Of a stretch of DNA of 13,970 nucleotides, positions 2,781 to 11,879 are shown in pieces. The stretch lies in assembly GCA_028748945.1 (NCBI GenBank), contig JAQTOL010000034.1:1-13970 (forward strand), given 5' to 3'. The translations under genes were made by a program, and so were the position numbers. The notes beneath the pieces were generated by a model that saw only the letters and a list, made by a program, of their open reading frames with translations, did no database searches and was not told where the DNA came from. Position 1 is the first letter of the stretch; every line of letters begins with the position of its first letter. The DNA is from Paludibacter sp. GTDB lineage: Bacteria > Bacteroidota > Bacteroidia > Bacteroidales > Paludibacteraceae.

Positions 2781-5351
2781 CTATTCTTTTATTATCTTCC
2801 TATATTCAAATGTCTTACCAGTTTTAAATTTAATCATGTATACACCCGAACAAAGTGAAGAAGTTTGCACCGTTGAGCTTTTAATCAAGTCACCATTATA
2901 AACAACTTGTCCCATTAAATTTAGAATTTCAAAAGTTGATCCTCCTTCAAAATCAATTCTTAACTGGTTTTTCACCGGGTTAGGATAAATGTTGATTTGT
3001 ATATTATTCCCATCTAACTCATTTACACTACTAAGAGAATTCGTTACAATGTTTGAGCGGGAAGAATTGTATGATAGCAATGAAGCTCCGGCTGAGTAAT
3101 CTGATTTTTTTGATTTTTGTATTGAAGCTGGCACTTTTGTTGGATTAATCAGATTTGGACTGATAACTTCCAGTTGATAAAAAACATCTCCGGTAGGTGC
3201 AGTCAAGTCGCTATACTGATTACTGCTTCCTGAAGTTGCATCCAGAAAATTCAAATTATTGATAGTAGTACCCCTATAGATATTGTATGTTGAAACATTA
3301 AATCCAAGATACGGTTCCCATATTAAATTCCATGTAGTGTTTTGTCCTTTATTTATTGATAAATGCATCGTTTTATGTGCATTGCTTAATGGAGACACCA
3401 TGCCATTATTATCGAAAATTGATAATTTATATTTATTTGATTTTACTTCGGGAAAAGATTGATTGTCTACAAAAACGCTCAATGAATCGTAAGGAACTGT
3501 GCCGATTTTCTCAAATACATTGCTTGTATTTGTTTCTCTATAAATATAATACGATGCAATACCTGTTGTAACAGGCTTGTTCCAAACAATCATGTTTTTA
3601 TTAGAACTTATAACTCCAACAATTCCAATTTCCGGTTGAGCCATTGATAATAAATTTACTTTGACATTTGCCGAAGTGCTGCAACCGCTAGCTGTAGTAA
3701 CAACAAGTGTATAGGTTATATTACTGGTGACAGTAGCAAAAGGATGTGCGATCGTATCATTATCTAATCCTGTTGAAGGAGTCCATTTATATTTTAATTT
3801 TCCACTTCCTGTATAACTTATTGTTGGGTATAGTATAACTGAACCTCCACTCATAAGTGCAGTATCTCTTAGTTCAATTATAGGCAATTGATTTACGGTA
3901 ACCATTGAATACGATACATTACCATCACCACAATCATTATGTCCTTTCACTGTTATGTTACCCGAAATAGCTGACTTGGTATAATTTACAGTGATACTAT
4001 TTGTTGTACTTGATCCTGTAGCTCCTGAAGGTAAAACCCATTTATAAGATGTTGCGTTATCAACAGCCGGAACAGTATAAGTTACAGAGTTTTCACCCTG
4101 ACAAACAGTTTTGTTTCCGGAAATAGAACCGGCAATTAGCGGCAATAAATTTGCAGTAATATCTAATTTAGAAGCAATTCCGTCTCCCCATTCATTATGT
4201 CCTTTTACAGTAAGACTTCCTGTAGTGAAATATCTTTCATATTTAACCGTAATACTATTTGTATAACTTGTTCCTACAATTCCTGCAGGCAAAGTCCATA
4301 TATAGGATGTGGCAAAAGCAATAGTCGGAACAGTATATGTGACTGAGCTTTGTCCTTGGCAAACTGTTTGAGCCCCGGAAATTATTCCTGCTGTATCAGG
4401 CATTGATGCAGTCGTAAACGATACCTCACTTCCATACACTGTTCTTTCTCCATCTGTGGCATAGGCTTTTACATAATACTTTGTGTTAGCCGATAAACCT
4501 GATATTGTATCACTAAATGCACCAAGTGTGGTTTTTAATCCATTATCTGTTTTGTTATCTGTAATTGTTGGCGATCCAGATGTATTCCAACAAAATCCAT
4601 ATGAGCTGACAGGAGAATCAGTAATGTAGTCAAAGTTACCATTAAGTACTACAGAAGATAATGCAACTGAAGTAACTGGCTGGGTCGTTAATGACAATAA
4701 CGATTCAGAAATACAACTGCTATAAAAACTCCAAACACTTGATTTATATGAATTGACACAACCCTTGGGGACATAAATATTGTTGGGAGTTATTCCTAGC
4801 AATGTTCCATTAAAATTGCTAATTGTTGCCGGATTGGGATTTAAACATCTGATTATTTTTAAGTTTGTACAATTGTAAAAAACATCATTATTAAAACTTG
4901 ATACTAAACTTGGGATAACTATTTTACTTATTCCAGTACAACCATTTAATGAATAATTACCCATTGATGTTATTGAATTAGGTAGTGCTATTTTAATTAG
5001 TGTACTTTTCCCTGTGTCCATTCCGAAAAAAAATGAACCTTCTGGCAGTTCATTAGCAGGGTAACTTGAAGTGCTATTCATAAAGCTTGTTCCAGAATTT
5101 CCGTTGTATGAAGTAATGTTTACATCACTTAAATCAAGATTAGCTAAAATTTTCATTTCATCACGTATACATTTTACATCGCGGGCATCAATGTTTCCCG
5201 TAACAGTCAAGTCAGTTATAGAGGTCTTTTCAGTTGCAGAAAGTGAAGTGCTAAGTGTTCCGGCTGTAGGAACATTAACTAATTTCGAAACCTGAGCCGA
5301 TACAAAATTGATAACTAGGACTAAAATGAAAATTGATAATAGTTTCTTCAT
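2781..5351 (-). CDS. Mosaic adhesin-like surface protein (LRR, FnIII, PKD-like, type IX sorting domain)
   Basis: The 856-residue product was not recognised as a named gene. A signal peptide covers about 1-19. Residues 20-215 form a short BspA-like leucine-rich region with the capping motif IYVPKGCVNSYKS near 192-204. An FnIII domain lies at about 220-315 (YGFCWNTSG, then YYVKAYATDG). Two near-identical PKD-like domains follow at about 320-400 and 405-487, each starting GxxxVCQG and carrying TVKGHN. A third PKD-like domain lies at about 488-568 (KWTPSTGLDNDT). Two FnIII-type units span about 572-735 (HKTMHLSINKG at the join), and the sorting domain covers about 785-856 (IYPNPVKNQL at 788-797). 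The likely role is surface binding, which is inferred from the modules. The N-terminus matches the 477-residue protein and the C-terminus the 954-residue protein. A repeat-borne promoter lies upstream, and there is no Shine-Dalgarno site. Confidence 0.85.
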   Translation of the reverse strand: MKKLLSIFILVLVINFVSAQVSKLVNVPTAGTLSTSLSATEKTSITDLTVTGNIDARDVKCIRDEMKILANLDLSDVNITSYNGNSGTSFMNSTSSYPANELPEGSFFFGMDTGKSTLIKIALPNSITSMGNYSLNGCTGISKIVIPSLVSSFNNDVFYNCTNLKIIRCLNPNPATISNFNGTLLGITPNNIYVPKGCVNSYKSSVWSFYSSCISESLLSLTTQPVTSVALSSVVLNGNFDYITDSPVSSYGFCWNTSGSPTITDNKTDNGLKTTLGAFSDTISGLSANTKYYVKAYATDGERTVYGSEVSFTTASMPDTAGIISGAQTVCQGQSSVTYTVPTIAFATSYIWTLPAGIVGTSYTNSITVKYERYFTTGSLTVKGHNEWGDGIASKLDITANLLPLIAGSISGNKTVCQGENSVTYTVPAVDNATSYKWVLPSGATGSSTTNSITVNYTKSAISGNITVKGHNDCGDGNVSYSMVTVNQLPIIELRDTALMSGGSVILYPTISYTGSGKLKYKWTPSTGLDNDTIAHPFATVTSNITYTLVVTTASGCSTSANVKVNLLSMAQPEIGIVGVISSNKNMIVWNKPVTTGIASYYIYRETNTSNVFEKIGTVPYDSLSVFVDNQSFPEVKSNKYKLSIFDNNGMVSPLSNAHKTMHLSINKGQNTTWNLIWEPYLGFNVSTYNIYRGTTINNLNFLDATSGSSNQYSDLTAPTGDVFYQLEVISPNLINPTKVPASIQKSKKSDYSAGASLLSYNSSRSNIVTNSLSSVNELDGNNIQINIYPNPVKNQLRIDFEGGSTFEILNLMGQVVYNGDLIKSSTVQTSSLCSGVYMIKFKTGKTFEYRKIIKE

Positions 5352-5523
5352 AATTCATTATATTTTGTTTATTGTTTTATAATCTTTTTTTGCGTTACGT
5401 TCATAATTTGTAGTTTAATTCAGCGTTTTGCAATGCTTTCTTTCATTTTCTAGAATGGGGCATAACACCCAAATAAACCTATCTGGATATATTTCACTTA
5501 TAGATTTATCAAATTACCGTGTT

Positions 5524-5539
5524 TATACTCCGTAGTATG
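5524..5539 (-). promoter_or_regulatory. Leader hairpin, copy A
   Basis: The plus strand reads TATACTCCGTAGTATG. TATACT and AGTAT(G) can pair around a four-base loop, and flanking GTTTA and TAAAC extend the pairing with a small bulge. It lies in the predicted 5' leader, about 25-40 nt after the expected transcription start. The same structure, with a perfect 6-bp stem, occurs in copy B. Confidence 0.5.
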
Positions 5540-5569
5540 GAATAAACCTGATTCTTTATTTTTATTCTC

Positions 5570-5601
5570 CAAAAATACGAACTCTTTTTAACTACACCAA
5601 A
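5570..5601 (-). promoter_or_regulatory. Promoter of the 856-residue surface-protein gene
   Basis: On the minus strand TTTG at 5601-5598 is followed after 20 nt by TATTTTTG at 5577-5570. This fits the Bacteroidota -33/-7 pattern (TTTG, about 19-21 nt, TAnnTTTG). Transcription would start near 5564 and give a leader of about 210 nt. The same two boxes with the same spacing occur in copy B. Confidence 0.7.
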
Positions 5602-5663
5602 AAATATCCTAATTATTTTTAAACAGTTGTAAAATCCCTTTATTTATGCGGGGCTGCGTTAAT

Positions 5664-5701
5664 AAAAAAAAACTTTCCCCGGCACTAAGAGGAAAGGTTT
5701 T
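5664..5701 (-). terminator. Rho-independent terminator after the 954-residue gene
   Basis: On the minus strand AAAACCTTTCC pairs with GGAAAGTTTTT (one mismatch), and the right arm runs into an uninterrupted run of T. It lies about 210 nt beyond the stop codon at 5911 and upstream of the next promoter, so it would separate the two surface-protein transcripts. Copy B has a perfect 11-bp stem. Confidence 0.75.
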
Positions 5702-5754
5702 AATTGATTTAAGGTGGAAGTACCAACAGAAAGTCGTGCCCCCACGAATAAGAC

Positions 5755-5882
5755 TTCGTCTGTTCATCGTTGCAAACGAGGTTTTACAAACCCGGACGAA
5801 ATAAATACAGCTAATAAATAGGATTACAAATCCTATGAATACATAAGGTGGTCCCGATAGTTATCGGGATACAAATTCCACC
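5755..5882. repeat. Array of small hairpins in the 3' region of the 954-residue gene
   Basis: An outer stem TTCGTC (5755-5760) / GACGAA (5795-5800) encloses two hairpins with three-base loops, TCGTT-gca-AACGA and GGTTT-tac-AAACC, giving a three-way-junction shape. Next comes a perfect 7-bp hairpin TAGGATT-aca-AATCCTA (5819-5835). Then GGTGG (5847-5851) / CCACC (5878-5882) encloses the palindrome CCCGATAGTTATCGGG (5853-5868). All would lie in the 3' untranslated region of the minus-strand transcript. Whether it is a repeat element or a functional RNA cannot be told from one copy. Confidence 0.6.
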
Positions 5883-5889
5883 TACCAGC

Positions 5890-5904
5890 CATATCCGCTA
5901 AGAC
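5890..5904 (-). repeat. Stop-proximal GGATATG element, copy 4
   Basis: The plus strand reads CATATCCGCTAAGAC, ending 6 nt from the stop codon (5911-5913) of the 954-residue gene. This is the same spacing as copy 3. Confidence 0.65.
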
Positions 5905-5910
5905 TAGGTT

Positions 5911-8775
5911 TTACTGCACTATTAATCTTGTTTTACCTAAAAATACATCATTCTTCACTTCCAGGAAATATAAACCTTTGGATAACGTTGATACATCCAA
6001 TTTATACATACTATCAGTTAATTGTTTATGAGAAACAACCTGCCCGGTAGAATTATAAATAATCAATGAAGTCTTGCCTGAAAGCTTACAATTAATGTCC
6101 AAAGTTGCTTCATTTCTGGTCGGGTTCGGATATAAGGTCAATAATTCAGATATATCGGAAACAGATTCCAAACTATTATATCCTGTTTGGTTAGTTGCAA
6201 TGTTTGAACGTGAAGAATAAACCGTTACAGTTTTACTACTGTTTGCATTCTCCTTTTTTATGCCACTGGCTGCCGACATTACAGCTTCAACTTGGTAAAA
6301 TACAACATCACCTGTTACAGTAATATCTGAGTATTGCGAATTACTACCTGACAATGAATTTATTAAAGTAATATTATCTTTATTGCTTCCCCGATAGACA
6401 TTATAAGTAGCTATTGACGCACCTTCATAGGGTTCCCAAATCAGATTCCAGATATTATTTGTGCCTTTGTTTATAGTTAAATGCATGGTTTTGTGGTAAG
6501 CACTTAATGCCGATTCAAAACCACAACCATCTATCTGACTTATTTTATAAATATTGGCCTGTATGTCTGGATTTGACAAAGTGTCAGTAAACTGATGCGA
6601 CGAGTTGAAATCTACCGAACCAATTTTTGTGAATACGTCTTTTATAGAACTTTCTCTAAAAATATTATATGACACTACATTGTTAAAACTTCCTGAATCC
6701 CATACAATCACATTTTTGTTTTTTTCTGACACGCCTACATAAGCGATATTTGGATTTGCTATTGCCGATGCACTTACCCCAACACTATCGGTTGCTGTAG
6801 AACCATACTGATTAGTTATTATCAGATGATAAACAGTATTTTTCAATGGTGATACAACCGGATTTGCAATAGTATCATTATCTATTGCATAATTGGGTGA
6901 CCATTTATATCTGAGCTTATTGCCTGTATAATTGGTTGAAACTACACCTAATTGCAAAAGACTACCACAACTCATAGTTTTGTTATCACCCAAATCCAGC
7001 GTCATGTTGATGGGATTGATTTTTACGGTTGCCGATGTACTGCATCCTCCCGATATCTTTGCTGTGATCGTATAGGTAGTTGTTACATTTTTAGCTTCCA
7101 GTGTAGGATTCAAAATGGTATCGTTACTAACTCCTACAGATGGAGACCATTTATATGTTATTTTATCATTTCCGTTATAATTGGTAGTTATAATAGGTGA
7201 TAAAGTTATTTTATTTCCACTCACAATATCTCCATATATATAATTACTGCTTAACGATAATCTTGATACATTGATACGTATCGAATCCTCAGCCATTTCA
7301 CCCAGTGGGGTAGTTACTTTCAACTTGTATTGAGTCGTCGACGAAACTGTAGCAACCGGGTTAGCCACTGTATCTGAACTTAAGCCGGAAGAAGGTGTCC
7401 ATCTAAATTTCAATTTAGAATAATCACTAAAATTTAATGTCGGTTGAAGTTGTATTTTTGCTGAACATACGATGGATTGATCATCACCGATATTCAGCGT
7501 TAATGGTACGATATTTACAGTAACTGAGTCAGTGGAAACACAGCTGTTCTCAGTTCTAGTAACATAATAAGTTGTACTAACGGTTGGTTGCGCAAATGGA
7601 TTGGCAATATTGGGATTGCTCAATCCTGCTAGCGGTGTCCAACTATAAGTCCCATTATCAACTGTTGGTTCAGGGCTAGTCAATTTACTCAGATAGGCGT
7701 TCGAACCAAAAATACAGCCCTGATCTTCGGCAAAAAAATCCGATCCTGCAAACCGGACTCCTGCATTATAGGTATAAAACAATTTCCAGGCTTTCCCAGC
7801 ATTCGTTGTTTTCAATACAAATCCTTCATAAATCCCTTTGGATATGGTTTTAGATCCACATATATAGCCAATTTTGTCGGTTACAAATTTCAATTTATTA
7901 AAAGTTGAACTTATAAGTGAATAAAACCCGATTCCTCCTGCAGAAGGATTGTTTTCATCATAATATTCTGTATAAACGGTATCAAACGGAATAGCCGACC
8001 AACTGGTTCCCCCATTTATTGTTTTCAATATAGAAGTTGAAGAAGTGGAGTAAGCAAAACCTGTCTCCTTACTGATAAATGAATAACCTGAAGATGAAAT
8101 GCCAGTTGGATTGGACTGAGCTATCCAGGTATCCCCTCCGTCGGTTGTTTTAAATATGGTTTGATTGATGCCAGACAAAAAACCTGTTTTTTTATCCAGA
8201 AAATATAACTTGGATACTGATGATGTTCCTGAAACAGTATGCAGATTCCATGTTTGACCTCCATCAGTAGTTATTAAATATCCATTCGTAAAACCTATCC
8301 CGTGCACTAATATTGTATCAGAAGAAATAAAACAAGCTCCTTTAAGGGATGAAGTAGACGCTGAATTTAATACGGTCCAAGTATCTCCTCCGTCAATAGT
8401 TTTGGATATCGTTCCATTGATACCAAAAGCTAATCCAATATTTTTGTTATAAAATAGCATACCGGCTAAGTAATTAGTAGAACCCCAGTTCGAACTTGTC
8501 CATGTATTCCCGGCATCGGTTGTTTTGAAGAATGTGCCCGTCGAAGTTGCTGCATAAATAATGCTGTCAGAGATTTGTTGAATAGAATTCAAATTGGTTG
8601 TAGAATCATAATTCAGAGTTGTAAAGTTCGGACTTACCAACAATTTTGCTTTTAGCTGAACTTTATCTTCTGCAGTTATAAAATGATTTACACCCGCATC
8701 AACTACACATTGTGCCTGAAGTTTTAACATTGAAATGATAATAATTAAAATGCACGATACTAATGTTTTTTTCAT
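5911..8775 (-). CDS. Secreted protein with YCF48 repeats, PKD-like domains and type IX sorting domain
   Basis: The 954-residue product was not recognised as a named gene. A signal peptide covers about 1-21 (LQAQC). Six YCF48-type motifs with a D/N-G/A-G-x-x-W core lie at 84-92, 125-133, 168-176, 209-217, 251-259 and 322-330; the first five are 41-43 residues apart, as in a beta-propeller. PKD-like repeats with W(T/S)P follow, complete at about 426-504, 508-587 and 592-668. A first one appears split around the propeller (24-46 and 374-422). Two FnIII-type units lie at about 674-832 (HKTMHLTINKG) and the sorting domain at about 878-954 (LYPNPTRNEA). The likely role is cell-surface binding, inferred only from the modules. 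There is no Shine-Dalgarno site, and no clear promoter was found in 8776-9186. Confidence 0.85.
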   Translation of the reverse strand: MKKTLVSCILIIIISMLKLQAQCVVDAGVNHFITAEDKVQLKAKLLVSPNFTTLNYDSTTNLNSIQQISDSIIYAATSTGTFFKTTDAGNTWTSSNWGSTNYLAGMLFYNKNIGLAFGINGTISKTIDGGDTWTVLNSASTSSLKGACFISSDTILVHGIGFTNGYLITTDGGQTWNLHTVSGTSSVSKLYFLDKKTGFLSGINQTIFKTTDGGDTWIAQSNPTGISSSGYSFISKETGFAYSTSSTSILKTINGGTSWSAIPFDTVYTEYYDENNPSAGGIGFYSLISSTFNKLKFVTDKIGYICGSKTISKGIYEGFVLKTTNAGKAWKLFYTYNAGVRFAGSDFFAEDQGCIFGSNAYLSKLTSPEPTVDNGTYSWTPLAGLSNPNIANPFAQPTVSTTYYVTRTENSCVSTDSVTVNIVPLTLNIGDDQSIVCSAKIQLQPTLNFSDYSKLKFRWTPSSGLSSDTVANPVATVSSTTQYKLKVTTPLGEMAEDSIRINVSRLSLSSNYIYGDIVSGNKITLSPIITTNYNGNDKITYKWSPSVGVSNDTILNPTLEAKNVTTTYTITAKISGGCSTSATVKINPINMTLDLGDNKTMSCGSLLQLGVVSTNYTGNKLRYKWSPNYAIDNDTIANPVVSPLKNTVYHLIITNQYGSTATDSVGVSASAIANPNIAYVGVSEKNKNVIVWDSGSFNNVVSYNIFRESSIKDVFTKIGSVDFNSSHQFTDTLSNPDIQANIYKISQIDGCGFESALSAYHKTMHLTINKGTNNIWNLIWEPYEGASIATYNVYRGSNKDNITLINSLSGSNSQYSDITVTGDVVFYQVEAVMSAASGIKKENANSSKTVTVYSSRSNIATNQTGYNSLESVSDISELLTLYPNPTRNEATLDINCKLSGKTSLIIYNSTGQVVSHKQLTDSMYKLDVSTLSKGLYFLEVKNDVFLGKTRLIVQ

Positions 8776-9186
8776 ATGACTTTTATTAATTTTTGTAATA
8801 CTTTTCTTGATTGCAATATTTTTTATTTTTTTTAGCCTGCCCCTAACGACCGAGGCGTGTGTTGAACTAAATTCCCTTCGGGAAGGGCTTTGATTAGCAC
8901 TGTATTTTTATTCTTCCATAAATTTATCCTATATTTGTGCCAACAATCCAACCATACTCACGTCACTTTCGCTGATAAAGTGTAAAAAAGTGCCGCTTTC
9001 TCCATAACTACTTTTTCTTCTCCACGCTCGTTGAATCACCACCCTGCAAAAGGGAATACGGTTCAACCGACGCTTCCTTGCTGGGTCGTTCCGACCGCAG
9101 GAAGCATAAGTATTATGGGCTAGGTGTATTCTTTCATATCCTTCTTTTTTTTCTCCAAGTGAAGCGTGTAATTCTTAGAAAATGAA
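8776..9186. other. Intergenic region with hairpins and no recognised gene
   Basis: The 411-bp gap between the 954- and 477-residue genes has no convincing reading frame on either strand. It holds a strong imperfect hairpin at 9072-9105 (GCTTCCTTGC...GCAGGAAGC, with GGTCG/CGACC inside) and a small CCCTT/AAGGG hairpin near 8873-8886. A lone plus-strand TATATTTG lies at 8930-8937, without a TTTG at the right distance. The large hairpin is about 80 nt past the stop of the 477-residue gene but has no T-run on the minus strand, so it is not a typical terminator. Confidence 0.5.
9072..9105. repeat. Long imperfect inverted repeat
   Basis: GCTTCCTTGC (9072-9081) pairs with GCAGGAAGC (9097-9105), with one unpaired base. 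An inner GGTCG/CGACC closes a loop of about three bases. No T-run follows on either strand. It may be a repeat remnant or an RNA-stabilising 3' structure of the minus-strand gene. Confidence 0.55.
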
Positions 9187-10620
9187 TTATTCCACAATTA
9201 CTTTTATACTTCTATTTCCAACTTTAATCACATAAACACCGGCAGCGTGCACGGTTAGTATTTCGTTTTGTGAAGCTTTTGTTATTTCAGCTACTTTACG
9301 TCCATAAATATCAAAAATTTGAATGCCTAAGTTTGAAGCATTATCTATAATTATTTTTCTGTTTTGATAATGAATAGAATAAGAAGTTGCTGAAACATTA
9401 GTTAAAAATGTAGGAGCTTCCTGAATATTTTTAAAATACGACCAACAGAATGTCGTATTGTAAGCATTCAAACTCCCTCGTGGTACAATAAGGGGAATAG
9501 TATCAGCAACAAACTGAAAAGTATTATAACTGAGATTTACAGGAGGGACTACTGCATTGATAGTTAAAGATTTTAATCCAATACAACCATAGAAAGCCAT
9601 TTCTGCAATAGAATCAACCGAATTAGGGATTGTAATAGTTGTCAACCCCATGCACCTAGAAAAAGCCATAGACCCAATTGATGTTACTGTATTGGGAATT
9701 GTAATTGATATCATATCAGAGCGACCATAAAAAGCACAATAACATAACTGGGTTGTTCCATCTGCGATGGTTATATTTGAATTGACCAGGGTATCACCTT
9801 TGTATTTGTAGGCACATTTTCCCACATAAATCACCCCGTCTGGTTGATCTTTATAAAAATTTATGTTACCGAAAGCATTGTCTCCAATAAAAGTAACAGA
9901 ATTTGGGACTGTAATAGTTGTCAGAGAAGTGCAATTCTGGAAAGCATTTTTCTTTATTGTGGTAACTGAATCAGGAATTATAATTGTAGTCAATTTTTCG
10001 CAATCCTGAAAAGCATATTCCCCAATTGTCTTTACAGAATTAGGAATTTCTATACTTGCCAATACGAAACAATCGTAGAAAGTGGCATTTTCTATTGAAG
10101 TAATCCTATTTGGCAATATTATAGATTTTAATTCATAGCAATTAGCAAAAGTGGCACTTCCAATTGAAGTTATTGAATTTGGAATTGTAATAGATGCCAA
10201 TCCTGTACAACACTCGAACGCATTCATTCCTATTGAAATTGCAGTGGTTGGAAAGGTGATTGTTGTAAGTGTTATCTTGCCTACACCATTACCTTTATAA
10301 AATGAAAATTGAGGGATTGTATTTTCTAAGTAATTTTGACCTCCATATATGTCAGTTCCATTTGCTCCATTATATGCTGCAATTGTTACAGCACTTAAAT
10401 CGAGTATTGACAAAACCGGCATACTATCACGAATAGTTTTGAAATCTCTGGCATCAAGACTACCACTAATTGTAAGATCTGTTACAGTAGTTTTTTCTGA
10501 AAAAGTGAGTAATGTGTACAGATTTCCTGCAACATCAACATTAATTGATTTTATTACTTGCGCTTGTCCAATAATAAAAAAAGATAAGCATAGCAGTAAA
10601 ATTTGTTTTCTTTTTTTCAT
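9187..10620 (-). CDS. BspA-like leucine-rich repeat surface protein with type IX sorting domain
   Basis: The product has 477 residues. A signal peptide covers about 1-20 (IIGQAQ). A conserved N-terminal segment at about 22-110 (TDLTISGSLDARDFKTIRDS) is shared with the 856-residue protein. Treponema/BspA-type LRR units of 23 residues run from about 132 to 246 and again from about 303 to 350, with the recurring pattern AFxxCxxLxxIxIPNSVTSIG. A less regular insert at 250-295 splits the two blocks. The cap PLIVPRGSLNAYN is at 376-388. Residues about 408-477 resemble a sorting domain (IQIFDIYGRKVAEI, GVYVIKV) but lack the NPNP turn. Proteins of this kind in other bacteria bind host or matrix proteins; binding here is only inferred. 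It is expressed from a repeat-borne promoter, with no Shine-Dalgarno site. Confidence 0.87.
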   Translation of the reverse strand: MKKRKQILLLCLSFFIIGQAQVIKSINVDVAGNLYTLLTFSEKTTVTDLTISGSLDARDFKTIRDSMPVLSILDLSAVTIAAYNGANGTDIYGGQNYLENTIPQFSFYKGNGVGKITLTTITFPTTAISIGMNAFECCTGLASITIPNSITSIGSATFANCYELKSIILPNRITSIENATFYDCFVLASIEIPNSVKTIGEYAFQDCEKLTTIIIPDSVTTIKKNAFQNCTSLTTITVPNSVTFIGDNAFGNINFYKDQPDGVIYVGKCAYKYKGDTLVNSNITIADGTTQLCYCAFYGRSDMISITIPNTVTSIGSMAFSRCMGLTTITIPNSVDSIAEMAFYGCIGLKSLTINAVVPPVNLSYNTFQFVADTIPLIVPRGSLNAYNTTFCWSYFKNIQEAPTFLTNVSATSYSIHYQNRKIIIDNASNLGIQIFDIYGRKVAEITKASQNEILTVHAAGVYVIKVGNRSIKVIVE

Positions 10621-10729
10621 GTTACTTAAATTCTATAAACTTCGGTTTTTATTTTTTACACTTGGCCATAACACCCAAATAAACCCATCTGGATATATTT
10701 CACTTATAAATTTATCAAATTATTGGGTT

Positions 10730-10745
10730 TATACTCCGTAGTATA
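10730..10745 (-). promoter_or_regulatory. Leader hairpin, copy B
   Basis: The plus strand reads TATACTCCGTAGTATA, a perfect 6-bp inverted repeat with a four-base loop. GGTTTA and TAAACC outside it can extend the stem with a three-base bulge. It lies about 25-40 nt into the predicted transcript, as in copy A. Confidence 0.55.
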
Positions 10746-10776
10746 GAATAAACCTGATTCCTTTAAAATTCACCCC

Positions 10777-10808
10777 CAAAAATACGAACTCTTTTTAACT
10801 ACACCAAA
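10777..10808 (-). promoter_or_regulatory. Promoter of the BspA-like gene
   Basis: On the minus strand TTTG at 10808-10805 is followed after 20 nt by TATTTTTG at 10784-10777. Both boxes are identical to copy A although nearby bases differ. The predicted start is near 10771, giving a leader of about 150 nt. Confidence 0.7.
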
Positions 10809-10870
10809 AAATATCCTAATTATTTTTAAACAGTTGTAAAAACCCTTTATTTATGCGGGGCTGCGTTAAT

Positions 10871-10908
10871 AAAAAAAACCTTTCCCCGGCACTAAGAGGA
10901 AAGGTTTT
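10871..10908 (-). terminator. Rho-independent terminator after the 206-residue gene
   Basis: AAAACCTTTCC (10875-10885 on the plus strand) and GGAAAGGTTTT (10898-10908) form a perfect 11-bp stem, and the minus-strand right arm continues as a run of eight T. It lies 70 nt past the stop codon at 10978. Confidence 0.8.
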
Positions 10909-10977
10909 AATTTGATTGAAGGTGGGAGTACCGACTGAAAGTCATGCCCACGAATAAAGAACATAAAGCAAAGAAAT

Positions 10978-11598
10978 TTACATCACGTAACTTGTGATTT
11001 CGAAACTCCAGGCCCGGCGTGGGTCGGTTCCTACACCTGCCACCTGAATAACATATTGTTGTCCCGGAATAAGATTCTCGAGGATAATTTTATGTTTGGT
11101 GGTAGTTACTTTTTCGTACACACTGGTTTCCGTTTTAGGAAATTTGGTGTAGCGTACTTCGTAACTGCGTGCATGATCTACCACATCCCAGCTTAGTTCA
11201 AGTGTACCGTTAATCTTACCTGCTTTTACAATTACATTTTCCGGTTGATCCAGTATATCCACATAGACGGGTTTGCGGTTGATATCGAAACCCGAACTAA
11301 GTATCATTACTTCGTCACCTTTACTGATGTTTTGCACCAAACGTCCGGTTTCACAAAGTGCTTCCGTCAGATTTAAACGTGCATTATTTTTTTCAGCTGT
11401 AACTTTTTTGCCACCATCAGCCATTTTGGCCAGGCAGTCATCGAATGTTGTGATAAGTGCCCGAATGGTCACAACATTGGGAGCCAACGTGGGGAAATAT
11501 TCATTCCCGTCCAGATTAATTACAATATTCGACGCCTTTACTTTTAATTCAGGGTCGGAATACTCATTTGTTGAAAATCCTAAACTTACTTTGTTCAT
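10978..11598 (-). CDS. Protein with helical N-terminal half and C-terminal fibronectin III domain
   Basis: The 206-residue product has no signal peptide or membrane segment. The N-terminal half (about 15-100) is predicted mostly helical from its composition, with a charged stretch MADGGKKVTAEKNNARLNL at 59-77. The C-terminal domain at about 117-203 has typical FnIII landmarks: LELSWD at 133-138, YEVRYT at 146-151, LIPGQQYVIQV at 176-186. From memory this matches a small family of FnIII-containing proteins, frequent in Bacteroidota, whose function is unknown. No sorting domain is present, unlike the genes on its left, so it may stay in the cytoplasm or leave by another route. The start MNKVSLGF fits the family. 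The gene ends just before repeat copy B, which supplies its terminator, and no promoter was identified. Confidence 0.75.
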   Translation of the reverse strand: MNKVSLGFSTNEYSDPELKVKASNIVINLDGNEYFPTLAPNVVTIRALITTFDDCLAKMADGGKKVTAEKNNARLNLTEALCETGRLVQNISKGDEVMILSSGFDINRKPVYVDILDQPENVIVKAGKINGTLELSWDVVDHARSYEVRYTKFPKTETSVYEKVTTTKHKIILENLIPGQQYVIQVAGVGTDPRRAWSFEITSYVM

Positions 11599-11734: not shown

Positions 11735-11789
11735 ATCCCACCAACAAGTACCGAACTTTGCTCATTTAATAAACATATCCGTTAGGACA
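11735..11789 (-). repeat. GGATATG element, copy 5 (long form)
   Basis: This matches 2719-2774 over about 55 bp. It is the only copy in the window not close to a stop codon: the nearest minus-strand stop is at 12444, about 650 bp away. It may mark a deleted gene end or a relocated copy. Confidence 0.7.
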
Positions 11790-11879
11790 GATGTTGCCGT
11801 TCTCCGGCTGACCGGCTGCTCCTTGTTAACCTGCTGTAAAATTTTATCTTAATACCAAACAATATATTCAAAAGATACT

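Follow-up and report, generated by a model that had tools for sequence, protein, structure and literature searches.

Why do two copies of one 291-bp unit stand before two leucine-rich repeat (LRR) protein genes? The question arises from a stretch of Paludibacter DNA of 13,970 nucleotides (the window), contig C34 of a 3.46-Mb metagenome-assembled genome (MAG) of 540 contigs and 85% completeness (the own genome, G000; handles beginning with G, C and L denote genomes, contigs and loci). The copies lie on the minus strand at 5461-5751 (unit 1) and 10667-10957 (unit 2). An earlier note had described them as a terminator-promoter-leader module that would insulate and drive any gene behind it and thereby add co-regulated surface proteins. 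The analysis indicates, with a probability of about 0.8, that both are integrase-less integron platforms, each predicted from its sequence to contain a terminator, a cassette promoter (Pc) and an attI-like attachment site with the terminal core G|TTATG. The genes were most likely added by site-specific recombination, since the leader resembles attI and has an integron-type core at its end.

The direct repeats were confirmed by BLAST at 92% identity across 291 bases, and similarity continues for some 20 nt, to 5441 and 10647 (90% identity, 313 columns). The units differ at 9 of 91 alignment columns in the terminator part, at 1 of 91 in the segment holding the promoter and its upstream sequence, and at 14 of 111 in the leader (~105 nt). 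The promoter segment has fewer differences than the remainder of the repeat (Fisher p = 0.002), and the claim of conserved boxes between varying bases holds for this segment. The promoter claimed for each copy, TTTG-N20-TATTTTTG, was found in both, and each matches an extended 31-bp pattern (TTGGTGTAGTTAAAAAGAGTTCGTATTTTTG at 5570-5600 in unit 1; 10777-10807 in unit 2). Of the two minus-strand hairpin terminators proposed, that of unit 2 (10872-10912) is strong, with a T-run, a stability of -17.3 kcal/mol, a z-score of -4.25 and 0 of 200 shuffles equally stable; the terminator-like hairpin and T-run of unit 1 (5665-5705) is weak (-10.6 kcal/mol, z -1.95, 11 of 200 shuffles equally stable). Both units adjoin the 3' side of unrelated genes, for an FN3 protein (10978-11598) and a YCF48-like type IX secretion system (T9SS) protein (5911-8775). 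The module of terminator, promoter and conserved leader is real, with different genes behind its copies.

The similarity between the copies drops off at the core, and the sequence beyond is unrelated. The leaders span 5461-5569 and 10667-10776, with GTTATG at 5466-5461 and 10672-10667. The strict attI core consensus is GTTRRRY, and GTTATG has a T in place of its second R; GTTATG is also the core at the integrase-linked attI sites of L095, L096, L100 and L135. Cassettes start at the 3' core of an attI, and a matrix of such starts was made from the 18 nt after GTTA at 25 cassette starts that follow attC sites not in the window (left-out training scores, 3.5 to 20.7). When all 129 GTTA sites of the window were scored, the highest values belonged to the unit 2 core (17.2), an attC remnant at 8847 (16.9) and the unit 1 core (14.6), and the next site scored -3.4. 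Both GTTATG cores are thus followed by a cassette 5' signature. The start behind unit 1, TGCCCCATTCTAGAAAA, almost equals the start of a G071 cassette, TGCCCCATTCTAAAAAA, and the start at a third own-genome copy (C44) scored 11.1, the best among 16.

Sister units in other genomes are followed by cassettes that attC sites close. In G071 (L084) the leader ends in GTG|TTAGCAGGC, and two genes further on stands GCCTGCTAACACACG...GCCTCGGTCGTTATGGGC, identified from the letters as R'' and R' of an attC of the integron type, with R'' reverse-complementary to the start of the cassette. This site is complete by the attC model (E 1.5e-30), and that of G061 (L062) is truncated by the contig end (E 1.7e-17). 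Agreement between cassette start and R'' behind the sister leaders is 6/7 in L062, 7/7 in L105(L084) and 6/7 in L106. Across 29 cassettes from 12 of the 14 loci examined, including four poor pairs (2 to 4 of 7), a cassette start agreed with its own R'' at 5.76 of 7 positions, versus 3.53 when the R'' boxes were redealt, and 0 of 2000 redeals did as well. A pair was entered only if the AACACACG box came before the next R' core; others went uncounted. Ten aligned attC sites folded into a single hairpin of 39 pairs with one extrahelical base (RNA parameters). The core GCCTCGGTCGTTA forms same-strand arrays with ~1 kb spacing in several genus genomes. With one mismatch it occurred in 42 of 48 genomes, but a reversed control was of similar order in some, so only arrays and exact runs count as evidence. 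G042, whose integrase passes TIGR02249, was considered as an attC source and set aside, since none was recognised by eye on the stretch read. One further array, in the single-contig 3,685,504-base genome G016 (L103, G016:C1:2870000-2889000), has about ten R'' boxes; that genome holds three attI-like matches and no full-length integrase of the ~560-aa type described below.

The own genome has attC sites on contigs C75, C12 and C53, and C12 is the closest bridge between the window leaders and attI. It carries TTAAAAAATAGTTTGTATTTTTG, a distal inverted repeat and ACTTATAAATGGAATATATGCGCAATTGCGTATATATTTGGTGTTATG, followed by a gene for 257 aa and by an attC that is complete (E 2.1e-38; R'' agreement 6/7). 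Both window leaders aligned with the C12 leader, and with the G061 leader, better than any of 1000 shuffles in each comparison. A hidden Markov model (HMM) of 24 attI sites, 8 integrase-linked and 16 model-found and none with the 31-bp promoter, responded to the window leaders: 2 of 500 shuffles scored better than unit 1, 0 of 500 better than unit 2, and 1 better than the C44 copy. A strict, sequence-only model was built from the 8 attI sites between an integrase stop codon and the first cassette and was searched over 32 sources (165,747 bases; E up to 5). Nine of its 11 matches fell in the leaders of L089, L084, L062, L083, L066 and L075, and two in L072, ~500-600 nt downstream of the promoter. 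These integrase-less promoter leaders gave E values of 1.9e-15 (L089), 8.6e-6 (L084), 3.6e-5 (L062), 8e-4 (L083), 0.016 (L066) and 0.044 (L075), and the leader of own contig C437 matched at E 0.0083.

Searches with the unit in its own genome and its relatives, as the earlier note had suggested, revealed relatives both there and in 11 further genomes of the genus. Only two full copies exist in the own genome, where BLAST found four partial relatives as well, of the leader only in C3 and C44 and of the promoter part in C398 and C437. With the leader alone as query against 48 genus genomes (E < 1e-5), only G017 matched besides the own genome. The C3 (L003:1567-1689) and C44 (L006:1-46) matches are apparent halves of a third leader copy split by an insertion sequence-like element, with inverted ends CACTACTGTCCGG and CCGGACACTAGTG and a 9-bp target repeat AATTGAAAT; the copy was counted through its C44 half alone. 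The 31-bp promoter pattern (up to three mismatches) had 31 matches in 12 of the 48 genomes, at two additional own-genome places and in the 11 other genomes, and its reversed control had none; outside the genus it was absent from all 197 genomes sampled at the level of the order. The element TTTG-N20-TATTTTTG, conserved between copies and species upstream of the attI-like site, is a candidate Pc. Sites matching the attI model at E ≤ 0.01 were present in at least 38 of 48 genus genomes, with at least 15 in the richest, among the matches listed. In 30 such loci, one per genome, a simple motif scan, liable to overlook decayed genes, found an integrase motif in 10, none in 18 despite about 1.5 kb of upstream sequence, and too little sequence in 2. 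Of 20 attI loci with no integrase seen, 17 have TAnnTTTG in the 200 nt upstream, against 3.5 expected. Three near-identical attI sites in G030 have different cassettes behind them; an integrase end lies upstream of two (C114, and C59 by eye), and some repeated attI sites are for this reason complete platforms, while the third is at a contig end. Integrase-less attI sites were most similar to an integrase-linked attI of the same genome in 14 of 35 cases, and 70 of 720 label permutations were as good.

The type of recombinase that could act on these sites is indicated by other loci of the genus. A ~560-aa tyrosine recombinase lies upstream of attC cassettes, and co-directional with them, in L095, L096, L100, L101 and L135, and homologues that count as full-length, with at least some 480 of 563 residues in the alignment, occur in 12 of 48 genus genomes, among them 3 of the 12 promoter-bearing genomes (G015, G017 and G071). 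Ahead of the first cassette, 11 of 17 integrase 3' flanks contain an attI-like stretch that has a GTT core and in most cases follows a TAnnTTTG box; in the others the core is at the contig end (L098), the flank ends too early (L137, L142) or no such stretch was found (L097, L139, L143). No protein of the own genome or of the 23 genus genomes searched exceeded the TIGR02249 cut-off. The proteins P0001 and P0002 match this profile under the cut-off (P0001, 217.7 bits; cut-off 265) and leave profile positions 179-238 uncovered; against NF040815 (cut-off 220) they scored just over (P0001, 223.6) and just under (P0002, 218.3). Residues 180-245 of IntI4 (2a3v), 66 residues, face 23 residues of the genus enzyme. 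The uncovered stretch is presumably the IntI-specific additional domain around patch III. One study calls that domain necessary for integron-mediated recombination (PMC9668308). The genus integrases carry a ~290-residue N-terminal extension, and an AlphaFold model (predicted local distance difference test score 75, predicted template modelling score 0.39) shows three small α/β repeats, similar to one another, within the first 270 residues, with 2a3v as the best fold match; one homologue had a sub-threshold HARP match (E 0.021). The XerA/IntI-like family is large: of 7995 proteins scored, 2016 reached E ≤ 0.001. Paludibacter members (L095:377-2068, L096:3835-5565 and relatives) have the three-repeat extension and lie beside attC cassettes in several loci, and the L101 recombinase is from another family of the order.

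Taken together, these observations suggest how the units would work. The hairpin would end the upstream transcript and the Bacteroidota-type promoter would begin a new one, whose ~105-nt transcribed leader would serve as the attI-like site with the crossover at its terminal G|TTATG. Cassettes would be joined there by integron-type site-specific recombination (attI x attC), performed by a recombinase provided in trans or, in the past, in cis. The cargo could change while terminator, promoter and attI remain, and a captured cassette would be transcribed from the unit promoter, shielded from upstream. The two LRR genes were probably placed in this way. The insulating and driving module of the earlier note comes close to this in effect; it differs in that the placing device would be a recombination site and in that the cargo extends beyond surface proteins.

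The cargo is diverse. Genes behind the 31-bp promoter are mostly unrelated to one another. In the own genome the other relatives of the unit precede genes for proteins of 199 aa (C44) and 257 aa (C12), neither with a Pfam match, and open reading frames of 940 aa (C437) and 165 aa (C398); in related genomes the genes behind them include AAA/nSTAND ATPases, a HEAT protein and, by eye, restriction-modification genes (L063, L073). Among 18 first genes behind units or attI sites, 8 passed a Pfam family cut-off (AAA_15/AAA_21, nSTAND1, HEAT, BanI, Cap4 nuclease, PhzF, ApbA, Fib_succ_major), one had only a sub-cut-off M1 peptidase match and 9 had no match; PADLOC added AriA/PtuA-like and LmuA-like matches. 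The idea of a surface-protein regulon was rejected on this diversity, and the two LRR proteins appear, from the genes compared, to be two among many cargos.

Several results weigh against the platform interpretation. The window leaders have no match to the 8-sequence integrase-linked attI model (E > 5), and plain local alignment with integrase-linked attI sites was weak (L001, 8 of 400 shuffles; L002, 82 of 400). Their likeness to most other sister leaders is also weaker (1-13 of 1000 shuffles), and for the unit 2 leader it falls to 75 and 71 of 1000 against G015 and G011. Of the 31-bp motif, the C12 promoter shares just the downstream half, TTAAAAAATAGTTTGTATTTTTG, and in G032 (L106) an R'' box stands alone, with no match to the attC model; the probability given above takes these two points into account. 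A clear cassette start lies within 205 nt of the promoter at 10 of 31 places, with 2 borderline (L079, L083) and 19 without, so the promoter also stands at places other than attI; L064 has a cassette start with no attI-like leader before it, and G017:C14 (L090, G017:C14:1-2300) has two tandem promoter-leader units, without the GTTA core, before small genes. In the window, no attC was recognised behind the 856-aa LRR gene, and behind the 477-aa LRR gene the box that could be complementary to the cassette start agrees at 5/7 only, so neither gene is recognisably closed by an attC hairpin with a complementary R''. No integrase of the ~560-aa type was found in the 85%-complete own assembly, so fragmented that integrase genes may be absent from it, and none in the window, where intI does not lie beside attI and no integrase trace precedes the units. 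The own genome has two matches to the integrase, which are XerC/D-like because both are ~300-aa frames at 27-33% identity.

Other explanations account for parts of this pattern. The leader could be a structured 5' RNA, riboswitch-like or protein-binding, of a small regulon, with the repeat kept by regulatory selection: it sits downstream of a promoter and has two inverted-repeat arms, and by eye the pairing of one stem survives the changes between copies. The inverted repeats, however, differ between the units and follow the attI layout, similarity stops at the cassette core, the genes behind are unrelated, and at E values up to 5 Rfam gave no match on either unit, which also removes a known Rfam leader family from consideration; a structured RNA is very improbable. 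Hardly better are the prospects of an ordinary segmental duplication of an intergenic promoter and terminator region with no recombination function. It would fit the two full copies in the assembly, their 92% identity and the duplication of the terminator side as well, and it may be the origin of this particular pair, but it leaves unexplained the cassette-start signatures, the attC cassettes behind sister units and the abundance of attI-like sites in the genus.

A more serious alternative differs from the platform interpretation on origin only: the units may be decayed complete integrons, in which an attI without integrase is the remnant after loss of intI. Some attI sites of relatives have integrase fragments upstream, and intI loss is one published route to clusters of attC sites lacking integrases (CALIN; PMC8618304). 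Against this stand the lack of any integrase trace upstream of the window units, a unit promoter unlike those located behind integrases, and G071, where the same promoter region (last 121 bases identical) enters two different leaders. Decay is a tenable though less favoured account. A unit forming a complete cassette without an open reading frame was also considered and set aside; no R'' complementary to the 5' border was seen by eye, and no systematic test was made.

Along the minus strand of the window, the order is the FN3 gene, unit 2, the 477-aa LRR gene, a possible attC, the attC remnant, the YCF48 gene, unit 1 and the 856-aa LRR gene. The 206-aa FN3 protein (10978-11598) lies directly upstream of unit 2, and FN3-type homologues precede attI-like sites in two species, G066 (L066, 37%) and G032 (L172, 40%), so unit 2 may occupy an old hot spot. 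The first gene behind unit 2 (9187-10620) encodes a 477-aa BspA-type LRR protein (LRR_5, E 4.7e-71), and that behind unit 1 (2781-5351) an 856-aa LRR/PKD/T9SS protein by Pfam; both are in cassette position with a cassette-type 5' end. The signal-peptide-proximal LRR module that they were said to share was verified as a common N-terminal/LRR module (38% over 185 columns); a type IX sorting domain is present in the 856-aa protein (Por_Secre_tail), and the 477-aa protein has a DUF6383 match instead. The weak R''-like box that might close the 477-aa cassette (9112-9121, minus strand) is 5/7 complementary, as are three other places within 6 kb. Overlapping it, a ~122-bp element at 8994-9115 resembles G071 L085:2620-2745 (77%) and lies behind first genes in two species; it is perhaps a second attC type. 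The attC remnant AACACACGCCTCGGTCGTTA (8844-8863, minus strand), with an exact GCCTCGGTCGTTA, precedes the 954-aa YCF48-like protein gene (5911-8775, minus strand), which sits in cassette position between the remnant and unit 1. Two further repeats were noted: imperfect ones (75%, parts inverted) at 1-180 and 1531-1716 around an RsgA-like GTPase gene (380-1447), and an intergenic, repetitive extragenic palindrome-like one (78%) at 2719-2787 and 11735-11803 with ATATGTTTATTAAATGAG, similar pieces of which occur in L064.

In the usual description, an integron has a single integrase with a single attI, Pc and array. If a genome has several integrase-less Pc-attI sites, captured genes would be expressed in parallel and not queued behind one promoter, which would change thinking on cassette expression and its cost. 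The findings point to a large integron-like lineage in Bacteroidales, with an integrase that lacks a domain held necessary for integron recombination and with cassettes large enough for LRR/T9SS surface proteins. A tentative extension, which we consider rather doubtful, is a distributed integron: an XerA/IntI-like recombinase would serve in trans many scattered promoter-attI docking sites, each separately transcribed and holding one or few cassettes, the N-terminal three-repeat extension would replace the IntI additional domain, and the unit itself would be copied, partly as the 3' end of a cassette.

Among the literature matches listed, which exclude subscription papers and preprints and were judged by title and opening of the abstract, none dealt with Paludibacter integrons or with many attI sites per genome. 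For Bacteroidetes, IntegronFinder 2.0 lists a complete integron in Salinibacter ruber (PMC9024848). As in Treponema chromosomal integrons (PMC3607928), the integrase is co-directional with the cassettes and attI lies between the integrase stop and the first cassette, whereas each genome of Paludibacter carries several attI-like sites, many with no integrase seen, and the Paludibacter integrase has a ~290-aa N-terminal extension and no additional-domain stretch. Archaeal integrons likewise have a putative attI directly downstream of intI, but their IntI proteins retain the additional domain (PMC9668308). Cassettes with no neighbouring integrase, such as those of own contigs C75, C12 and C53, recall CALIN (PMC9024848, PMC8618304), to whose definition the promoter and attI-like site of Paludibacter are additional. 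In promoter-bearing cassettes without open reading frames, promoters within the array drive the following genes (PMC6557892, PMC11014356), as proposed here, although no complete cassette borders were found for the 291-bp unit. The ΔattI-type cassettes of class 1 and 2 integrons have an attI-derived 3' end (PMC12901181), and the YCF48 gene lies similarly between an attC core at 8847 (5') and the unit 1 attI core at 5466 (3'). Those cassettes mostly hold short attI remnants in mobile integrons, whereas the window has a terminator, a promoter and a whole attI-like site. Since ΔattI-type cassettes are reported to be functional with IntI1 (PMC12901181), we hypothesise that the YCF48 gene and unit 1 (8847 to 5466), which have the form of such a cassette, represent a possible route by which the unit travels.

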